Assembly: GCA_021816585.1 (NCBI GenBank)
Contig: JAKAXL010000001.1
Location: 124,001-188,000, forward strand
Origin: Pseudomonadota bacterium
GTDB lineage: Bacteria; Pseudomonadota; Gammaproteobacteria; Burkholderiales; Burkholderiaceae_C
Length of the DNA stretch: 64,000 nt
Direction of reading: 5' to 3'
The notes under the pieces are model-generated. The model saw nothing but the letters and a program-made list of their open reading frames with translations, did no database searches and was not told where the DNA came from. This document shows positions 6,690 through 30,945 of the stretch, one piece after another. A program made the translations under genes and the position numbers. How positions within the stretch are numbered: the first letter of the stretch is position 1; each line of letters starts with the position of its first letter.

Positions 6690-7928
6690 ATGACTCTGCG
6701 CCGTCGCATCGCCATCACCGGTCTGGGTATCGTTTCTCCCGTGGGCAACTCCGTGGAGACGGCCTGGAGCAATCTGGTCGCCGGCAGGTCCGGAATCGGG
6801 CCGATCACCAAATTCGATGCGTCGACGTTTTCCGCGCGCATCGCCGGAGAGGTGCGCGACTTCGACATCGGTGAATACATCCCGGTGAAGGAGGCGCGCC
6901 ACATGGACACCTTCATCCACTACGGGCTGGCGGCGTCGATGCAGGCGGTCCGCGACAGCGGACTCCACGGCGACTCCGGAGTCGATCCGGAGCGCGTCGG
7001 CGTGATGATCGGCTCGGGAATCGGCGGCCTGCCGATGATCGAGCAGACCTATCAGGAATTCATCGACCGCGGTGCGCGACGCATCTCGCCGTTCTTCGTG
7101 CCGTCGTCGATCATCAACATGATCTCGGGGCACCTGTCGATCCAGTATGGATTCAAGGGGCCGAACCTTTCGGTGGTGACCGCCTGCACCACGGGGCTGC
7201 ATGCGATCGGACTGGCCGCGCGCCTGATCGAGAGCGGAGACGCCGACGCGATGATCGCCGGCGGCGCCGAGGCCACCGTGTGCCCGCTGGGCATCGGCGG
7301 CTTCGCCTCGGCGCGCGCGCTTTCCACGCGCAACGACGACCCGGAAGCGGCGAGTCGTCCGTGGGACGCCGAGCGCGACGGCTTCGTGCTGGGCGAAGGC
7401 GCCGGCGTGATGATGCTGGAGGACTGGGAGCACGCGACGCGGCGCGGTGCGCGCATCTACGCCGAGCTGGTCGGCTTCGGCATGAGCGCCGATGCCTTCC
7501 ACGTCACCGCCCCGAACGTCGACGGCCCGCGCAAGTGCATGGCCGCCGCGCTGCGCAATGCCGAGGTGGCGGCCGACCAGGTGCAGTACCTGAATGCCCA
7601 CGGCACCTCGACGCCGCTGGGCGACAAGAACGAGAGCGACGCGATCAAGGCGGCCTTCGGCTCCCATGCATCGCGCCTGGTGGTGAGTTCGACCAAGTCG
7701 ATGACGGGGCACCTGCTCGGCGGTGCCGGCGGTGTCGAGGCCCTGTTCACGGTGCTGGCCCTGCATCGTCAGGTGGCGCCGCCGACCATCAATCTGCGCA
7801 ACCCGGATCCCGAGTGCGATCTGGACTATTGCGCCAACACCGCGCGCGACATGCCCATCGAGTACGCGCTGAAGAACAACTTCGGCTTCGGCGGGACCAA
7901 CGGGTCGCTGCTGTTCCGCCGCGTCTGA
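6690..7928 (+). CDS. fabF: Beta-ketoacyl-ACP synthase II
   Basis: A 412-residue elongating condensing enzyme. The thiolase-fold catalytic residues are C166 (VVTACTTG), H304 (NAHGTSTPLGD) and H341 (SMTGHLLGGAG). FGFGGTN near the C-terminus is the final family motif. Length is normal for FabF. The start MTLRRRIAITGLG at 6690 puts the conserved first strand at residue 6. It ends the fab cluster; ygfX begins 13 bases after the stop. Confidence 0.97.
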   Translation: MTLRRRIAITGLGIVSPVGNSVETAWSNLVAGRSGIGPITKFDASTFSARIAGEVRDFDIGEYIPVKEARHMDTFIHYGLAASMQAVRDSGLHGDSGVDPERVGVMIGSGIGGLPMIEQTYQEFIDRGARRISPFFVPSSIINMISGHLSIQYGFKGPNLSVVTACTTGLHAIGLAARLIESGDADAMIAGGAEATVCPLGIGGFASARALSTRNDDPEAASRPWDAERDGFVLGEGAGVMMLEDWEHATRRGARIYAELVGFGMSADAFHVTAPNVDGPRKCMAAALRNAEVAADQVQYLNAHGTSTPLGDKNESDAIKAAFGSHASRLVVSSTKSMTGHLLGGAGGVEALFTVLALHRQVAPPTINLRNPDPECDLDYCANTARDMPIEYALKNNFGFGGTNGSLLFRRV

Positions 7929-8477: not shown

Positions 8478-9152
8478 ATGGCAGGCGGCGGCGCCTGCGG
8501 GGAATGCGCCGCAAGCTGCGCGACGGACCATCCCGCCCCAGCCGACGCCCACGTGCACGACAGATCCGACCAGTCCCTGGTCCAGCGAGTCCAGAAGGGC
8601 GACCAGCAGGCCTTCGCGCTGCTCGTGGCCAAGTACCAGCGGCGCATCTTTCGCCTGATCTCGCGCTTCGTCAGCGATCCGGCGACCGCCGAGGACATTG
8701 CCCAGGAGACCTTCCTGCGCGCCTATCGAGCGATCGGGCGCTTCCGCGGCGACAGTCAGTTCTACACATGGCTCTACCGAATCGCGGTCAATACCGCGAA
8801 GCGCAGCGCCCTCGACGATGCTCGCAGTCCCGTTTTGCAAGAAAATGCAACTTTTTCGCAGGACGAGGAAACTTTTCCGAAGCAGGAGCAACTAAGCAGC
8901 ATGGATACCCCTGACGCGGTCATGGCGAGTCGGGAAATTGCCGACACCGTGAACGCCGCGATGGATGCGCTGCCCGAGGAATTGCGCACCGCCATCGTGC
9001 TGCGCGAGATCGACGGCATGAGCTACGACGAGATCGCGCAGGTCATGGGTTGTCCGGTAGGCACGGTGCGCTCGCGCATCTTTCGTGCACGCGAGGCGAT
9101 CGCGCGGCAGTTGCGCCCGTTGCTCGGCACCCGCTCGGACGAGCGCTGGTAG
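8478..9152 (+). CDS. rpoE: ECF sigma factor RpoE (sigma-E/AlgU type)
   Basis: A 224-residue ECF sigma factor. Region 2 includes LVAKYQRRIFRLISRF and AEDIAQETFLRAYRAI, with the FYTWLYRIAVNTAK segment that contacts the -10. Region 4 follows (ELRTAIVLREIDGMSYDEIAQVMG and GTVRSRIFRARE). Homologues usually start close to QSLVQRVQKGD, so GTG 8553 is a realistic alternative to ATG 8478; the first 25 residues are cysteine- and alanine-rich and unlike the family. It would direct RNA polymerase to GAACTT-N16-TCTGA promoters, one of which lies at 28214-28240. It is followed by its anti-sigma gene. Confidence 0.93.
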   Translation: MAGGGACGECAASCATDHPAPADAHVHDRSDQSLVQRVQKGDQQAFALLVAKYQRRIFRLISRFVSDPATAEDIAQETFLRAYRAIGRFRGDSQFYTWLYRIAVNTAKRSALDDARSPVLQENATFSQDEETFPKQEQLSSMDTPDAVMASREIADTVNAAMDALPEELRTAIVLREIDGMSYDEIAQVMGCPVGTVRSRIFRAREAIARQLRPLLGTRSDERW

Positions 9153-9221: not shown

Positions 9222-9905
9222 ATGCGAAGCAAGGTGGATGGCCGGCGGTTGCAGGACGCCGCGCCGGTGGGGACGGGCACGCGCTCGCAGGCCGCACGCG
9301 AGCGCGTGTCGGCGCTGATGGATGGCGAGTCGCCGCCCGGCGGCGCGGACGATGCGGCTTGGGAGGCGCTGGTGCGCGACCCGCAGGCCCGTGCCGCGTG
9401 GCTCGAATACCACCGCATCGGCGACTGGATGCGTTGCAGCGAGCACCCTGTCGCGTTCGACGAGCAGGCCTTCGCCGAGCGCCTGAGCGCGCGTCTTCGC
9501 GACGAGCCCGCGCCGTGTGCGAGCGCCGCGCAGCAGGGGCGCGGCGCGTCGAGGTGGGTGCGCCTGGCGCCGCGTGCCGGCGCGCTGGGCGCGTCGCTGG
9601 CTGCGGCGCTCGCGCTGCTGGTGATGGGCGATGCCGGCATGCATCGCGAATTCCCCCGGGCCCGCCTGGCGGCGGCCACCTCCGCCGCGATGGCTTCCCA
9701 CCGCCTGCCGGTGCTTGCGCCGCAAGAGGGCGGCCATGATGGCCCGCTGGCATGGGTGTCGCTGCGCATGCTCCCAGCCGGCCCGCGCTCGCAGGCGCTC
9801 GGCACCGCACCGGGACCGATGCAGTTGCACGCGCTGCTGTCCGGCCTGCGCTATGTGCAGCCGCTGCCGCGGTTCGAAATGCCGCGCGGCAACCCCTTGC
9901 ACTGA
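9222..9905 (+). CDS. rseA: Anti-sigma-E factor RseA
   Basis: A 227-residue single-pass membrane protein. The cytosolic N-terminal domain has the RseA signature RERVSALMDGE (residues 26-36) followed by WLEYHRIGDWMR. A hydrophobic segment near residues 117-130 (LGASLAAALALLVMG) forms the membrane anchor, leaving a periplasmic tail of about 95 residues. It would hold RpoE until envelope stress triggers its proteolysis. Relatives are normally followed by rseB; here a Do-type protease comes next, 126 bases downstream. Confidence 0.88.
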   Translation: MRSKVDGRRLQDAAPVGTGTRSQAARERVSALMDGESPPGGADDAAWEALVRDPQARAAWLEYHRIGDWMRCSEHPVAFDEQAFAERLSARLRDEPAPCASAAQQGRGASRWVRLAPRAGALGASLAAALALLVMGDAGMHREFPRARLAAATSAAMASHRLPVLAPQEGGHDGPLAWVSLRMLPAGPRSQALGTAPGPMQLHALLSGLRYVQPLPRFEMPRGNPLH

Positions 9906-10031
9906 GCGCGCGCCGCCGGGCGCGGTCCGCGGCGCGCTATGCTCGCGGCGGGCCGCAGCTGCGCACGCTGTTCGTCGTGGGCAAGGGCCGTGCGCGGCGA
10001 CGCGGATTCGAATTCCCTGGGAGGGACTGTC

Positions 10032-11552
10032 GTGGATCGAGGTGGGCAACAAACGCGCCGCGGCAGGGGTCCCGGGCGCTCGACGATGGCGGCGGTCGCG
10101 CTGCGACGCCAGTTGGCGCGACTCGCGCTGGGCCTGTGCATCGGCGTCGCGCCATGGTCCGTGCAGGCGGCGCCCGCCGCGACCGCCGCGCCGCAGCGCG
10201 CCGAGCCGCCGTTGCTGGTCGCGCTGCCGGATTTCACCCGGCTGGTGCAGCAGGTCGGTCCCTCGGTGGTGAACATCCGCACGTACACCCGCGCGCAAAG
10301 TCCCGAGGCCCAGCAGGACGAACAGACTCGCGAATTCCTGCGCCGCTTCTTCGGCATCCCGCTGCCACCCGGCGACGCCGGCCCGGAGCAGCCGCAAGCG
10401 AATGACGAGCGCCCGCTGGGTGTGGGCTCCGGCTTCGTGCTGGAGTCCGACGGCTACGTGCTGACCAACGCCCACGTGGTCGACGGCGCCGACCGCATCG
10501 TCGTCACGCTGGCCGATCACCGCGAGTTCAACGCGCGTCTGATCGGAGCCGACACGCGCACCGACGTCGCGCTGCTGAAGATTGCCGCCACCGGGCTGCC
10601 GGCGGTGCGCATCGGCGACTCCAGCCGCGTGCAGGTGGGCGAATGGGTGGTGGCCATCGGCTCGCCCTTCGGGCTCGACAACACGGTGACTGCCGGGATC
10701 GTCAGTGCCAAGGCGCGCGACACCGGCGACTACACGCCCCTGATCCAGACCGATGTCGCGGTGAACCCCGGCAACTCCGGCGGGCCGCTGATCGACATGC
10801 GGGGCCGCGTGGTCGGCATGAACTCGCAGATCTACAGCCGTACCGGCGGCTTCATGGGGATTTCCTTCGCGGTGCCGATCGACCAGGCCATCGCGGTGGC
10901 GCGGCAATTGCAGTCCACCGGGCATGTGGTGCGAGGCAAGATCGGTGTCGCGGTCGACGGCGTCAGCCGCGAGCTGGCGCAGTCGCTGGGACTCGAGGGC
11001 CCGCAGGGCGCGCTGGTCGCCGGCGTGGAGCCGGGCGGCGCCGCCGACACCGCCGGAGTGCGCGCCGGCGACATCATCCTGGCGATCGACGGCCACGAGG
11101 TGCAGCGCTCCAGCGACCTGCCGCGCCTGGTCGGATCGATCCGACCGGGCAGCCGGGTCCCGTTGAAGGTGTTCCGCCTGGGGCACGTGTTGCAGCTGCA
11201 GGTCACGGTGGCGTCGTGGAGCGACAAGTCGCAGCCTGCGCGGCAGGCTCCACGCTCGCCGGCCGCCCGCAGTCCGCTGGGAATCGGCGTCGTCGACCTC
11301 AATGCCCAGCAACGCAGCGAACTCGGACTGCGCTCCGGGGTGATGGTCGAGAGCACGGACGGCTATGGAGCGGCCGCCGGGCTGCGCGTGGGCGACGTCC
11401 TCGTGGCGATGAACAACATCGAGCTGCAAAGCGCCGCGCAGTTCGCATCGCTGACGGCCGCGCTGGCCGCGGACAAGCCCGCGGTGCTGCTGGTCAGGCG
11501 TGGTGCCGACGCCCGCTACGTGCTGCTACGACCACGCAAGCTTTCAGAGTAA
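10032..11552 (+). CDS. mucD: Periplasmic Do-family serine protease (MucD/DegP type)
   Basis: A 506-residue secreted protease-chaperone. The start is placed at GTG 10032 because GGGAGGGAC lies just upstream; ATG 10086 is the alternative and would give a shorter signal peptide. The signal segment is LALGLCIGVAPWSVQA, with cleavage likely after VQA. The trypsin-like triad is H148 (TNAHVVDG), D178 (RTDVALLKI) and S249 (NPGNSGGP). Two PDZ domains follow (about 290-380 and 410-500). It degrades or refolds damaged envelope proteins and in related species restrains RpoE activation. Confidence 0.93.
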   Translation: MDRGGQQTRRGRGPGRSTMAAVALRRQLARLALGLCIGVAPWSVQAAPAATAAPQRAEPPLLVALPDFTRLVQQVGPSVVNIRTYTRAQSPEAQQDEQTREFLRRFFGIPLPPGDAGPEQPQANDERPLGVGSGFVLESDGYVLTNAHVVDGADRIVVTLADHREFNARLIGADTRTDVALLKIAATGLPAVRIGDSSRVQVGEWVVAIGSPFGLDNTVTAGIVSAKARDTGDYTPLIQTDVAVNPGNSGGPLIDMRGRVVGMNSQIYSRTGGFMGISFAVPIDQAIAVARQLQSTGHVVRGKIGVAVDGVSRELAQSLGLEGPQGALVAGVEPGGAADTAGVRAGDIILAIDGHEVQRSSDLPRLVGSIRPGSRVPLKVFRLGHVLQLQVTVASWSDKSQPARQAPRSPAARSPLGIGVVDLNAQQRSELGLRSGVMVESTDGYGAAAGLRVGDVLVAMNNIELQSAAQFASLTAALAADKPAVLLVRRGADARYVLLRPRKLSE

Positions 11553-27016: not shown

Positions 27017-27022
27017 TACAAT
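27017..27022 (+). promoter_or_regulatory. Putative -10 element of aroC (leaderless arrangement)
   Basis: TACAAT ends seven bases before ATG 27030, in the 43-base mpl-aroC spacer. The arrangement matches mpl almost base for base (CCTACAATGGC against TCTACAATGGC). It indicates aroC has its own promoter. Confidence 0.5.
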
Positions 27023-27029
27023 GGCGCGC

Positions 27030-28142
27030 ATGTCCGGAAATACACTTGGTCTGCTGTTCGCCGTCACCACCTTCGGCGAGTCCCACGGCCCCGCGATCGG
27101 CTGCGTGATCGACGGCTGCCCGCCGGGCATGGAACTGTCCGAGGCCGATATCCAGCCCGAACTGGACCGCCGCCGTCCCGGAACCTCGCGCCATGTCACG
27201 CAGCGGCGCGAGCCGGACGAGGTGGAGATCCTCTCCGGGGTCTACCAGGGCCGCACCACCGGAGCCCCCATCGCGCTGCTGATCCGCAACCAGGACCAGC
27301 GCAGCAAGGACTACGCGTCGATCGCCGAGACCTTCCGCCCCGGGCATGCCGACTACACCTACTGGCGCAAGTACGGCGTGCGCGATCCGCGCGGCGGCGG
27401 GCGCTCGTCGGCGCGCCTGACGGCGCCGCTGGTCGGCGCCGGGGCGGTGGCGCGCAAGTGGCTGCGCGAGCAGCACGGCATCGTCGTGCGCGGCTGCATG
27501 CGGCAGGTGGGCGAGATCGCCATTCCCTTCCAGTCCTGGGAGCATGTCGGCGGCAACGCCTTCTTCTCCCCCAACCAGGACATCGTGCCCAGCCTGGAGG
27601 ACTACATGGACGCGCTGCGCCGCGCCGGCGATTCCTGCGGCGCGCGCGTGTACGTGGAGGCCCGCAACGTTCCCGCCGGCTGGGGCGAGCCGCTGTACGA
27701 CCGGCTCGACGCCGACATCGCGCACGCGATGATGGGTCTCAACGCGGTGAAGGGCGTGGAGGTCGGCGACGGCTTCGCCAGCGTCGCGCAGCGCGGCAGC
27801 GAGCATGGCGACGAGCTGACTCCGCAGGGCTTCGCCAGCAACCACGCCGGCGGTGTGCTCGGAGGCATCAGCAGCGGCCAGCCGGTCACGGTGTCGATCG
27901 CCCTCAAGCCCACGTCCAGCATCCGCGTGCCGCGCCGCTCCGTCGACCGCGACGGACAGCCGGTGGTGGTGGAGACCCTCGGGCGCCATGACCCCTGCGT
28001 GGGCATTCGCGCGACGCCGATCGCCGAGGCGCTGCTCGCGGTCGTGCTGATGGATCACGCGCTGCGCCACCGCGCGCAATGCGCCGACGTGCGCCACGAA
28101 CTTCCGGCGCTGCCGGGCTGGATCGGCGAGGCGGGCGCGTAG
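27030..28142 (+). CDS. aroC: Chorismate synthase
   Basis: A 370-residue FMN-dependent enzyme that converts EPSP to chorismate. [20 protein letters not shown] is the conserved start, so ATG 27030 is chosen over the in-frame ATG 27021 that lies within the -10 hexamer. Further signatures are [16 protein letters not shown], the RGGGRSSAR block, [11 protein letters not shown] and the C-terminal [10 protein letters not shown]. It ends the shikimate pathway. It is followed by a 186-base spacer holding the sigma-E-type promoter of the next block. Confidence 0.97.
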
Positions 28143-28213
28143 CGCGCGCACCCGGCGCGCCCGCGCGCCGCAGCGGCGGATCCGCGGCCGCGCGACAAAC
28201 AGCCGCGCGGCGG

Positions 28214-28240
28214 GAACTTGCGCCTGCGATCGGTATCTGA
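28214..28240 (+). promoter_or_regulatory. Sigma-E (RpoE)-type promoter for the CBS/ferritin-like block
   Basis: GAACTT (28214-28219, preceded by GG), a 16-base spacer and TCTGA (28236-28240) match the sigma-E consensus GAACTT-N16/17-TCTGA at every defined base. It lies 88 bases before the CBS gene start, outside coding sequence and in the correct orientation. The RpoE gene itself is at 8478-9152. No other such site was noticed in the window's intergenic regions. Confidence 0.75.
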
Positions 28241-28328
28241 CGATTCATTGCCTCGATTCCGGGCCGGGCGCATGCGCGCAGCCATCGGGCCAGCGTGCCC
28301 GGGATCGATCCACCGCAAGGAGATCGTC

Positions 28329-28790
28329 ATGCAAAAGGTATCCGAGATCATGACCCGCGACGTGCGTTCCATCGCGCCGCGCGAAAACCTGCGCCGCGCC
28401 GCGCAGATGATGAACGAGCTGGAGGTCGGCGTATTGCCGGTGTGCGACGGCAGGCGCCTGGTCGGCATGCTCACCGACCGCGACATCGTCGTGCGGGCCA
28501 CCGCCGCCGGGCGTGCGCCCGAGGACGCCTGCGTGGCGGAGGTGATGAGCGAGCAGCCCCGCTGTTGCTTCGAGGACCAGCCGATCGACGAGGTGATGCA
28601 GCAGATGGCCGACTGCCAGGTGCGCCGCATTCCGGTGGTGTCGCACGACGACACGCGCGAACTGCTCGGCATCGTCGCGCTGGGCGACGTCGCCACGCGT
28701 GGCGACGCCGCCGCCGGTGATGCCGGGGCCGGCGCGGGCGAGGTGCTGAAGGAGGTCTCCGAGCCCGCACCGCCCCAGCGTTCCTCCTGA
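28329..28790 (+). CDS. CBS-pair domain protein
   Basis: A 153-residue stand-alone protein with two CBS motifs: residues about 7-60 (IMTRDVRSIAPRENLRRAAQMM and VGMLTDRDIVVRA) and 70-130 (VMSEQPRCCFEDQPIDEVMQQM and VALGDVATR). CBS pairs bind adenosyl ligands and act as energy or ionic-strength sensors or as partners of other proteins. ATG 28329 has AAGGAG eight bases upstream. The tail is Ala/Gly-rich. It is the first gene after the sigma-E-type promoter and probably co-transcribed with the two ferritin-like genes, so a stress-related role is inferred. Confidence 0.88.
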   Translation: MQKVSEIMTRDVRSIAPRENLRRAAQMMNELEVGVLPVCDGRRLVGMLTDRDIVVRATAAGRAPEDACVAEVMSEQPRCCFEDQPIDEVMQQMADCQVRRIPVVSHDDTRELLGIVALGDVATRGDAAAGDAGAGAGEVLKEVSEPAPPQRSS

Positions 28791-28886
28791 TTGCGCGGCC
28801 TGCGTGCAAGCGCCGCGCGCGAATCGCCGGCGGCTTGCCTCGGCGCATGCCATGCATGCGTGCCACCCGTTGAACCCAGGAGAACG

Positions 28887-30062
28887 ATGATGGCTTTGGA
28901 TCTCTATGCGGCGCGCGGAACGCCGCCGCAACTGCAGTACCTGCACTGGCGCGACATGGCGCAGACACCGATCAGCAAGCTCGACGACGACGCCTTCACG
29001 CGCGTGCGCATCCTGCTGATGGCCGCGCTGGAAAGCGAGGCGCAGCGCTTCTCGCACGCTGCCGCGCGCTGCAGCGCCGAGCTGCGCGCCCCGCTCGCCG
29101 GACTGCGGCGCATCGAGCTGCACCAGGAGCTCGCGGTGCGTTCGCTGCTCGGCGTCGACCATTCGCCGCTGGAACTCGTGGTCGGCCACAAGCAGTGCGC
29201 GATCGAGGTCGGCGCGGCGCTGGCACGGCGCGAGTCCGATCCCGGCGTGGCGGCCGCGCTGCGCTTTTGCCTGCTCGAGGACTTCGACCACCTGTACCGC
29301 GTCGCCGCGCTGCTCGACCGCGTCGAGGGCCGCGACGCGAACAACATCCTGCAAAGCTACACCGACATCCTTCCCGGTCGACCGACCATCCTGCAGCACC
29401 GCGCAGCGCACGACGAGCTGCGTTTCGCCGGCGACTCGGCCACGCAGCCGGCGGCGAGCCGCATGCAGCTGCTGGGAATGATCGCCTGCGGCGCGCAGTC
29501 GCGCGACCTGTTCGTGCAGGCCTGCGCCAGTCAGGCCGATCCGGTGGTACGCCAGTTGCTCGCCGAGATCGCGTCGGTCGACGAGCAGCATCTGACCCAC
29601 TTCGAGTCCCTGCTGGACCCGCGGGAATCATGGCTCGAGCAGTGGCTGCTCCACGAGGCCCACGAGGCGCTGTGCTACCACGCCTGCGTGCAGCACGAGA
29701 CCGAGCCGCGCGTGAAGGCGCTGTGGGAGCGCATGCTCGACTACGAGATCGGGCAGTTCCACTTCGTCGCGGAACTGATGCGTCTGCAGCAGGGGCAGGA
29801 TCCGCAGCGCATCGTGCCGCGTGAGCTGCCGGAGCCGCTTGCCTTCGGCAGCCAGCGCGACTTCGTGCGCGAGCTGCTGCACGAGGAACTCGAGCTCAGC
29901 GCGGTGGCGCAGGGCTACGTGCCGCGCAGCCAGGAGACCCAGGCCACCCGGGACTACCGCGCGCGCGTCAACGCCGAGGGGTCGCCGAGCGAGTCGGTGG
30001 CGGCCGGCTACACCTGGAGTCCCGGCACCGAGCTCGCGCGCCTGCACCCGGCCGGCGCCTGA
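28887..30062 (+). CDS. Ferritin-like helical protein, 391 aa (putative)
   Basis: A soluble, mostly helical protein without signal peptide. Repeated Glu/His helices suggest two ferritin-like four-helix units: LLMAALESEAQRFSHAA and FCLLEDFDHLYRVAALLD in the first half, then EIASVDEQHLTHFESLLD and MLDYEIGQFHFVAEL in the second. Strict E-x-x-H pairs are not all evident, so di-iron binding is uncertain. ATG 28887 has CAGGAGAA just upstream; the longer frame runs through the intergenic spacer. It sits between the CBS gene and a clearer ferritin-like gene. The stop codon overlaps a 12-base tandem repeat. Identification rests on helix pattern and context. Confidence 0.65.
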   Translation: MMALDLYAARGTPPQLQYLHWRDMAQTPISKLDDDAFTRVRILLMAALESEAQRFSHAAARCSAELRAPLAGLRRIELHQELAVRSLLGVDHSPLELVVGHKQCAIEVGAALARRESDPGVAAALRFCLLEDFDHLYRVAALLDRVEGRDANNILQSYTDILPGRPTILQHRAAHDELRFAGDSATQPAASRMQLLGMIACGAQSRDLFVQACASQADPVVRQLLAEIASVDEQHLTHFESLLDPRESWLEQWLLHEAHEALCYHACVQHETEPRVKALWERMLDYEIGQFHFVAELMRLQQGQDPQRIVPRELPEPLAFGSQRDFVRELLHEELELSAVAQGYVPRSQETQATRDYRARVNAEGSPSESVAAGYTWSPGTELARLHPAGA

Positions 30063-30120
30063 GCGTCCGCCGGAGCGTCCGCCGGAGCGTCCGCCCGAGC
30101 GTCCGCCCGAGCGTCCAGCC
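30061..30120 (+). repeat. 12-bp tandem repeat between the two ferritin-like genes
   Basis: Five units of GAGCGTCCGCCS (30061-30120), the first overlapping the TGA of the upstream gene, with a degenerate sixth unit after it. The units are nearly identical (last one GAGCGTCCAGCC). In an alternative frame they read P-P-E-R repeats. The repeat separates the two genes by 124 bases; copy-number change would alter the spacing but not the proteins. Confidence 0.9.
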
Positions 30121-30186
30121 GAACGCCTGCCGCACGCCGCCTTGCCTGAACCCGCCTCAACCCGATCCATCGAAGGAGACAGCGTC

Positions 30187-30945
30187 ATGAAAGCTCAGGA
30201 ATCCCGCATGGGAAGCAACCGTACCGGCGTGCAGATGTCGCCGCTGGATGCCAAGCGCATGAACGAACAGCGCGTCGACCTCGCACCGCCGGTGCTGCAG
30301 TCCCCGTCGGCCGCGGCGATGGCCGACATGCGCGCGCGTTACATCGCCGATGCGCCCCGCATCGGCTCGGTGCCGCCGCCGGGCAACGTCAAGGGCGTCG
30401 TGCAGACCGGCATGGCGATGCTCACCGGCAACCGCCCGCAACTGCTGCTCGACAAGCTGGGGGAGCGCCTGGCTTTCGAGCGCAGTTCCACGCGCCTGTA
30501 CGACGCGCTGATCACCAAGGTGCGCGCCACCCGGAGCGACGGCGAGGACACGCTGCTGCCGCTGGACCTGCTGCTGCAGCACCGCGACGAGGAGGCCGAG
30601 CATTTCGCGCTGCTCGCGCAGGCCATCGAGCAACTCGGCGGTGACTGCACCGCGCAGACGCCCTGCGCGGATCTGGCCGGGCTGGAGAGTGCCGGACTGC
30701 TGCAGGCCGTCGTGGACCCGCGCACCACGGTCGTGCAGTCCCTGCACGCGCTGCTGATTGCCGAAATGGCCGACTGCAGCGGCTGGGACATGCTGATCGC
30801 GCTGACCCAGGCGCAAGGGCACGACTCGATGGCGCATGACTTCGTGCGTGCCGCAAGCGAGGAGCGTGCGCATCTGCAGCAGGTCAAGGTCTGGTTCGAG
30901 AGCCATACCCTCGGCGCACCGCTTTCCGGCGCCGGCTACGCTTGA
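30187..30945 (+). CDS. Ferritin-like domain protein, 252 aa
   Basis: A protein with the E / ExxH / E / ExxH pattern expected of a ferritin-like di-iron site: AFERSSTRLYDAL, HRDEEAEHFALL, LIAEMADCSGWDML and ASEERAHLQQVKVW, spaced as a four-helix bundle from about residue 98 to 245. The first 95 residues are a flexible Pro/Ala-rich leader. No signal peptide. GAAGGAGAC upstream of ATG 30187 is a good ribosome site. Iron or peroxide handling is inferred from the fold, and stress expression from the sigma-E-type promoter two genes upstream. Confidence 0.8.
   Translation: MKAQESRMGSNRTGVQMSPLDAKRMNEQRVDLAPPVLQSPSAAAMADMRARYIADAPRIGSVPPPGNVKGVVQTGMAMLTGNRPQLLLDKLGERLAFERSSTRLYDALITKVRATRSDGEDTLLPLDLLLQHRDEEAEHFALLAQAIEQLGGDCTAQTPCADLAGLESAGLLQAVVDPRTTVVQSLHALLIAEMADCSGWDMLIALTQAQGHDSMAHDFVRAASEERAHLQQVKVWFESHTLGAPLSGAGYA

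Follow-up and report, generated by a model that had tools for sequence, protein, structure and literature searches.

The window, a stretch of 64,000 nucleotides from a draft genome of the Burkholderiaceae_C (assembly GCA_021816585.1, contig JAKAXL010000001.1, positions 124,001 to 188,000 of the forward strand), contains a conserved sigma-E-type promoter element that, judged from sequence conservation, belongs to a unit holding a pair of ferritin-like genes. The element, GGAACTT-N16-TCTGA, occupies positions 28213-28240 on the forward strand of the window, with the -35 box at 28213-28219 and the -10 box at 28236-28240. Downstream of it and on the same strand are, in order, an optional gene for a CBS-pair protein of 153 residues (P0003; 28329-28790), the gene for P1 (P0001; 28890-30062), an internally duplicated and probably ferritin-like protein of 390 residues, and the gene for P2 (P0002; 30187-30945), a ferritin-like protein of 252 residues. 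A probable ribosome-binding site of the CBS gene, AAGGAG, is placed at 28317-28322 by its sequence and by the leader alignment. Genome comparison within the genus shows that species retaining the gene pair also retain the promoter, even those that have lost the CBS gene. The promoter class and the superfamily of P2 are known; P1, the stable pairing and its regulation are apparently new. No description of this operon, or of the P1-P2 pair under RpoE or AlgU, was found among the papers listed in searches of the open-access literature.

The initial annotation described a near-perfect sigma-E site 88 bases before the CBS gene, and this description is correct. In the window, GAACTT stands at 28214-28219 and is followed by a 16-base spacer and by TCTGA at 28236-28240, which leaves 88 bases between the end of the element and the ATG of the CBS gene (28329). 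This is the only match to GAACTT-N14-18-TCTGA on either strand of the 64 kb, and shuffled sequences give an expectation of 0.01 matches per window. In the draft genome itself (3.4 Mb, 93.6% complete), GAACTT-N15-17-TCTGA occurs exactly three times and the reversed control does not occur. A genus-wide scan for exact GGAACTT-N16-TCWGA returns 37 matches versus one for the reversed pattern. A chance match is ruled out as the explanation by the shuffles, by the 37 matches against one and by the absence of the element from all 13 congeners that lack P1. Second copies are absent from the gaps between CBS and P1 and between P1 and P2, where the best candidate has four mismatches, and the sole terminator-like site between 28329 and 30945 falls within the P1 coding sequence. 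The element fits the AlgU consensus, GAACTT-N16/17-TCtgA, as reported (PMC10651043).

Conservation was assessed in 28 genomes of the same genus. The upstream neighbour aroC (chorismate synthase; 27021-28142, forward strand; assigned by profile match) serves as the locus anchor, and in each genome the 400 bases that follow it were read. aroC is found in all 28 congeners, split over two contigs in one of them, and P1 is found in 15. After aroC, every P1-bearing congener carries the element; it matches GGAACTT-N16-TCWGA exactly in 12 and has one mismatch in three, one of which (G529) has a 17-base spacer. All 13 congeners without P1 have 3-5 mismatches in this region, as many as the reversed control (3-5). 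The comparison of 15/15 with 0/13 gives a Fisher probability of 2.7e-8 when the congeners are treated as independent of kinship. In one P1-bearing congener (G535), the element and the CBS gene are on one contig and P1 is on another. When the 15 leaders are aligned, no column upstream of the ribosome-binding region is invariant apart from GGGAACT, one G of the spacer and TC-GA. Counted from where the aroC match ends, the offset of the element ranges from +52 to +162 with the spacer constant at 16 or 17 bases, and the flanks and spacer drift across the congeners while both boxes stay. The annotated site is therefore conserved, within the genus, in the relatives that keep the genes. Because the element co-occurs with P1, P2 adjoins P1 and the CBS gene is optional, the unit is taken to be the promoter and the ferritin-like pair.

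The coupling of a CBS sensor to ferritin-like proteins had been proposed in the initial annotation as the core of the unit, and this part of the proposal is not upheld. The CBS protein contains PF00571 in two stretches (E 1.7e-24), and its matches in the PDB include 9z6r (2.9e-35) and Rv2626c (4.3e-19). It resembles these stand-alone CBS-pair proteins in having two CBS domains in approximately 150 residues but differs in that its gene is located between a sigma-E-type promoter and a ferritin-like pair. Close orthologs (64-88%) are encoded in 12 congeners in addition to the genome under study, and the element is upstream in 13/13. Two P1-bearing congeners, G524 and G529, have kept the element and have no close CBS ortholog. 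These fall in separate clades of the P1 tree, each beside CBS-bearing species, which suggests that the CBS gene was lost twice while the promoter was retained. Among 80 distant P1 loci, read up to 6 kb on each side and often cut by contig ends, a P0003-like CBS gene is present in two. The CBS gene is thus ruled out as the defining element of the unit, being near the pair in 2/80 distant loci and missing in two congeners with site and pair, and is regarded as an addition seen in this genus. Outside the genus, CBS relatives are found beside AhpC-like, HdeD-like or PRC-barrel-like genes (labels assigned by eye) in 3 of 12 loci examined.

The P1-P2 pair itself is stable. P2 adjoins P1, on either side, in 79/80 relatives; the one locus without it has only 40 bases of contig left beyond the P1 match. 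In one genome collection, a P1 relative is encoded in at least 555 of at least 584 matched stretches. By their titles, the 80 P1 loci come from Pseudomonadota, Myxococcota, Nitrospira and Bdellovibrio-type bacteria. The spread is patchy, with P1 in 5/150 genomes of a family sample and 8/369 of a class sample, the genome under study included. Clustering of the P1 loci by gene neighbours yields mainly lineage-local neighbours.

P2 is assigned to the ferritin-like proteins by alignment and profile comparison. Its alignment (n = 46; the window sequence and 45 of 79 relatives) matches symerythrin in the PDB at 7e-7, and Pfam Ferritin (PF00210) is found at E<=0.01 in 33 of the 46 members. The window P2 alone falls below every profile cut-off and has no match in a PDB search. 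Seven positions, E98, E136, H139, E193, D196, E226 and H229, are invariant in 46/46 aligned sequences, the window included, and all 46 have the E, ExxH, E, ExxH di-iron ligand set of the four-helix type (E98, E136-x-x-H139, E193 and E226-x-x-H229). This layout and the fit to symerythrin resemble the symerythrin/rubrerythrin type. P2 differs from that type in an N-terminal stretch of approximately 80 residues, some of them conserved, that precedes the first ligand helix, in having a partner gene and in the absence of the ligands from three congeners. A weak overlap with the ferritin-like family DUF892, which we take to be the YciE/YciF type, is seen in 19/46 members at E<=0.01, and DUF892 genes are near the pair in both loci scanned (L012, L047). 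P1 and P2 are nevertheless families separate from DUF892, and the window operon has no DUF892 gene.

P1 probably represents an unnamed, internally duplicated ferritin-like family, a view that is based on the duplication and on its spaced carboxylate and His residues. An hhalign comparison aligns one half of P1 with the other (probability 86%, E 4.8e-6). In the P1 alignment (n = 44; the window sequence and 43 of 80 relatives), E76, E106, E130, D133, H134, E226, H234, E259 and E286 are invariant in 44/44. Residue 201 is Glu in 42/44; the window, with Gly, is among the two sequences that deviate. All 15 genus copies have Gln at residue 289. Pfam matches at E<=0.01 among the 44 members are to Ferritin (1), Ribonuc_red_sm (4), FA_desaturase_2 (2) and COQ7 (1). 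The annotation of two ferritin-like proteins therefore stands for P2, by the symerythrin and Ferritin profiles, and is qualified for P1, for which the window sequence has only a sub-threshold match to Pfam Ferritin. A di-iron reading is borne out for P2 by the ligands in 46/46 sequences, but three congeners have lost P2 ligands and the genus has lost Glu201 of P1.

As the initial annotation also stated, RpoE is encoded in the window. The rpoE gene (8478-9152, forward strand), the presumed source of the sigma factor for the element, matches TIGR02939 at 277.4 bits against a cut-off of 236.15. Downstream of it, and likewise on the forward strand, are genes for an RseA-like anti-sigma factor (9222-9905; PF03872, RseA_N) and then a DegP/HtrA-type protease (9939-11552; TIGR02037). 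A scan of seven extracytoplasmic function (ECF)-like sigma factors of this genome, drawn from the ten strongest of its 14 Sigma70_r4_2 matches, found TIGR02939 in the window RpoE only. In the six others it is absent at E<=1e-15 among the matches listed (25 of 27 for L207).

The gene rpoH is a classic sigma-E target. In this genome, its product matches TIGR02392 above the cut-off, and GGAACTT-N16-TCTAA, with one mismatch, is found 40 bases before its ATG. With a loosened pattern, a similarly placed element is found in 13 of the 24 congeners whose leaders are readable, and seven of these 13 lack P1. The presence of the element in these forms upstream of rpoH may be a further likeness to RpoE/AlgU-class regulons. 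Because the element precedes rpoH, and because RpoE is the sole RpoE-class factor among those scanned, it is likely that RpoE reads the element before CBS-P1-P2.

With moderate confidence, we propose that the genes form a sigma-E-type (RpoE/AlgU-class) stress operon in which RpoE would drive CBS-P1-P2 and the pair would act on peroxide, oxygen or iron. Envelope stress would free RpoE from the RseA-like anti-sigma factor. RNA polymerase would then start at GGAACTT-N16-TCTGA, and CBS, P1 and P2 would be transcribed together. P2 is predicted to be a small ferritin-like protein with four helices, akin to the symerythrin/rubrerythrin type, and P1 would be its tandem partner, probably also ferritin-like, from the neighbouring gene. 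In the cytoplasm under stress, the two proteins most likely would remove peroxide or oxygen, or hold loose iron. The CBS pair may be an accessory adenylate-type sensor that tunes P1-P2 and can be lost. A study of a sigma-E mutant of Burkholderia pseudomallei reports that a rubrerythrin depends on sigma-E under oxidative stress, as does a type VI secretion system (PMC4175613), a further point of likeness between P2 and the rubrerythrin type.

Several observations weigh against this proposal, and the first of them concern the proteins. P1 has no match in the PDB at E<=5 with the alignment profile and none with P1 alone, and its halves do not align with P2 (hhalign probabilities 0.2% and 1.6%). 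In 15/15 genus copies, residue 201 of P1 is Ala, Gly or Ser. Both E136 and E226 of P2 have been lost in G524, G529 and G532, three of the 13 fully readable genus copies. Because P2 ligands are lost in 3/13 and Glu201 of P1 is replaced in 15/15, di-iron chemistry seems not to be needed in every species. Such losses, with the genes still behind the promoter, are what would be seen if the pair were a structural or protein-binding module, that is, a helical bundle binding DNA, membrane or a partner, from which metal has been lost in some species; P1 conservation that extends far past the possible ligands also fits this alternative. We consider it rather doubtful, given seven P2 positions that are invariant in all 46 aligned sequences, including those from Myxococcota and Nitrospira loci.

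Broken P2 ligands are found in 2/2 CBS-less and 1/11 CBS-bearing congeners with all positions readable (Fisher 0.04), an association that is post hoc, ignores kinship and choice, leaves out G520 and G527, and is not relied on here. That the P2 metal site is lost in both CBS-less species would be in keeping with a CBS protein that serves the metal-active form. Congeners with and without the CBS gene, and with and without the P2 ligands, amount to a natural experiment.

The remaining adverse observations concern the regulator. The best candidate for an element upstream of rpoE itself has four mismatches; autoregulation of rpoE is common and not required. Of the readable rpoH leaders, 11/24 have no element. 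Moreover, the -10 box at rpoH sits in a CIRCE-like repeat and is not independent; since the TC of the -10 falls in this repeat, only the -35 box counts as independent evidence at rpoH. The genome also holds other ECF-like factors. Its Sigma70_r4_2 matches number 14, nine of them over the cut-off and several ECF-like, and the ten of these proteins that were read out include one FliA-like and two response-regulator-like proteins. The element could accordingly be a true ECF promoter that is read by another ECF sigma factor, which would place the operon in a different stress response. A draft that is 93.6% complete may lack further factors, and both the rpoE gene without an element of its own and the absence of the exact element from 10/13 P1-less congeners are in keeping with this alternative. 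It is nonetheless unlikely, since TIGR02939 at E<=1e-15 is missing from the matches listed for all six further ECF-like proteins that were scanned, the element agrees with the AlgU consensus (PMC10651043), and a loosely matched element precedes rpoH, in seven P1-less congeners among others.

Loci outside the genus bear on the proposal in both directions. In Oxalobacteraceae-type loci (Massilia, Noviherbaspirillum and kin), GAAC(T/C)N-N15-17-TCN(G/A)A lies within 180 bases of the pair in 8/11 against an expectation of 0.06, for a pattern that was written after inspection of the sequences and in loci of which several Massilia leaders are plainly homologous. The same looser pattern is absent from 78 other relative loci, a few of which represent one genome twice (0 found, 0.4 expected), and the control is therefore lineage-specific. 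The element is ruled out as a general feature of the P1-P2 pair by these two counts. The strict TCTGA pattern, sought in 350-base leaders before P1 or P2 of relative loci, gives nothing below two mismatches, with the reversed control also at two; these leaders cover the DNA before P1 and P2, and an element before a CBS gene would lie outside their reach. The leaders thus suggest that at least two burkholderial groups, but not the relatives in general, have the pair under promoters of this class. An unnamed, widespread gene pair would in this way be placed under a concrete and testable regulator in one lineage.

Within the genus, the element is found before other genes as well. The 37 exact sites were assigned by coordinates, with Pfam applied to one example of each gene kind and the rest assigned by reading N-termini. 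The operon of the ferritin-like pair follows 12 of them, the start of vgrG follows five (contig C47 of the genome under study, G516, G527, G533 and G537), one kind of small secreted-type protein follows five, another kind follows two and an Rrf2/IscR-type regulator follows two. The remaining 11 sites are at contig ends or have no gene assigned. In Pfam, the vgrG product of this genome matches Phage_GPD and T6SS_Vgr, one of the element-preceded regulators matches Rrf2, and one secreted-type protein of each kind has no match. These sites suggest that the vgrG spike belongs to the same stress regulon as the ferritin-like pair, which raises the possibility that ferritin-like proteins and a type VI spike gene are both tied to the envelope stress response. 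The P1-P2 pair, the optional CBS gene and vgrG set this regulon apart from known RpoE/AlgU-class regulons, in that they were not found as sigma-E or AlgU targets among the papers listed in searches of the open-access literature. That the element is a mere remnant of the conserved region downstream of aroC, kept by chance or inheritance and without promoter function, is very improbable: the congeners are related and some bases beside the element are also alike, but at least three mismatches are found after aroC in 13/13 P1-less congeners, the boxes are constant while the flanks, the spacer and the aroC offset (+52 to +162, with spacing of 16 or 17) diverge, and the motif also precedes unlinked genes.

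A more ambitious version of the stress-operon proposal treats P1 as the first member of a new family of tandem ferritin-like proteins, active solely in complex with P2; in this genus, RpoE would switch the complex on, and the CBS protein would be its adenylate-responsive regulatory subunit. We regard this version as improbable. If it were true, envelope stress and the energy state of the cell would together control a di-iron defence that deals with peroxide or iron.

Further observations were made on the genes behind the element. Before the type VI spike gene vgrG, it is found in the genome under study at G000:C47 (L014, open reading frame at 7680) and in congeners at L179, L196, L198 and L200. 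A secreted-type protein of 165-171 residues starts 47-49 bases after the element in G527, G528, G531, G535 and G537 (L182, L185, L187, L192 and L193). In two P1-less congeners (L174, L181), the exact element lies 263 and 171 bases before the start of an Rrf2/IscR-type gene. Approximately half of the readable rpoH leaders (L171, L215-L240) combine a sigma-E-type -35 box with the CIRCE-like repeat TTAGCACTC-N9-GAGTGCTAA over the -10 box, an arrangement that would place sigma-32 under envelope-stress and HrcA-type control at once.

The P1-P2 loci have features of their own. P2 was not seen within the locus of G520 and was read in two pieces in G527. In G520 (L152), the closest congener, the P1 match ends at residue 360 inside a frame of 1225 residues, and no P2 is present in the next 1.5 kb, which suggests a rearrangement or an assembly error. 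On a Pandoraea plasmid typed as conjugative (L245), the P1-P2 pair is accompanied by a third ferritin-like gene, with transposase genes downstream. In the window, the degP-type frame directly follows rpoE-rseA, with no room for rseB/mucB between them (9222-9939). The gap between P1 and P2 opens with a run of near-identical 12-base repeats resembling GAGCGTCCGCCG (30063-30130).

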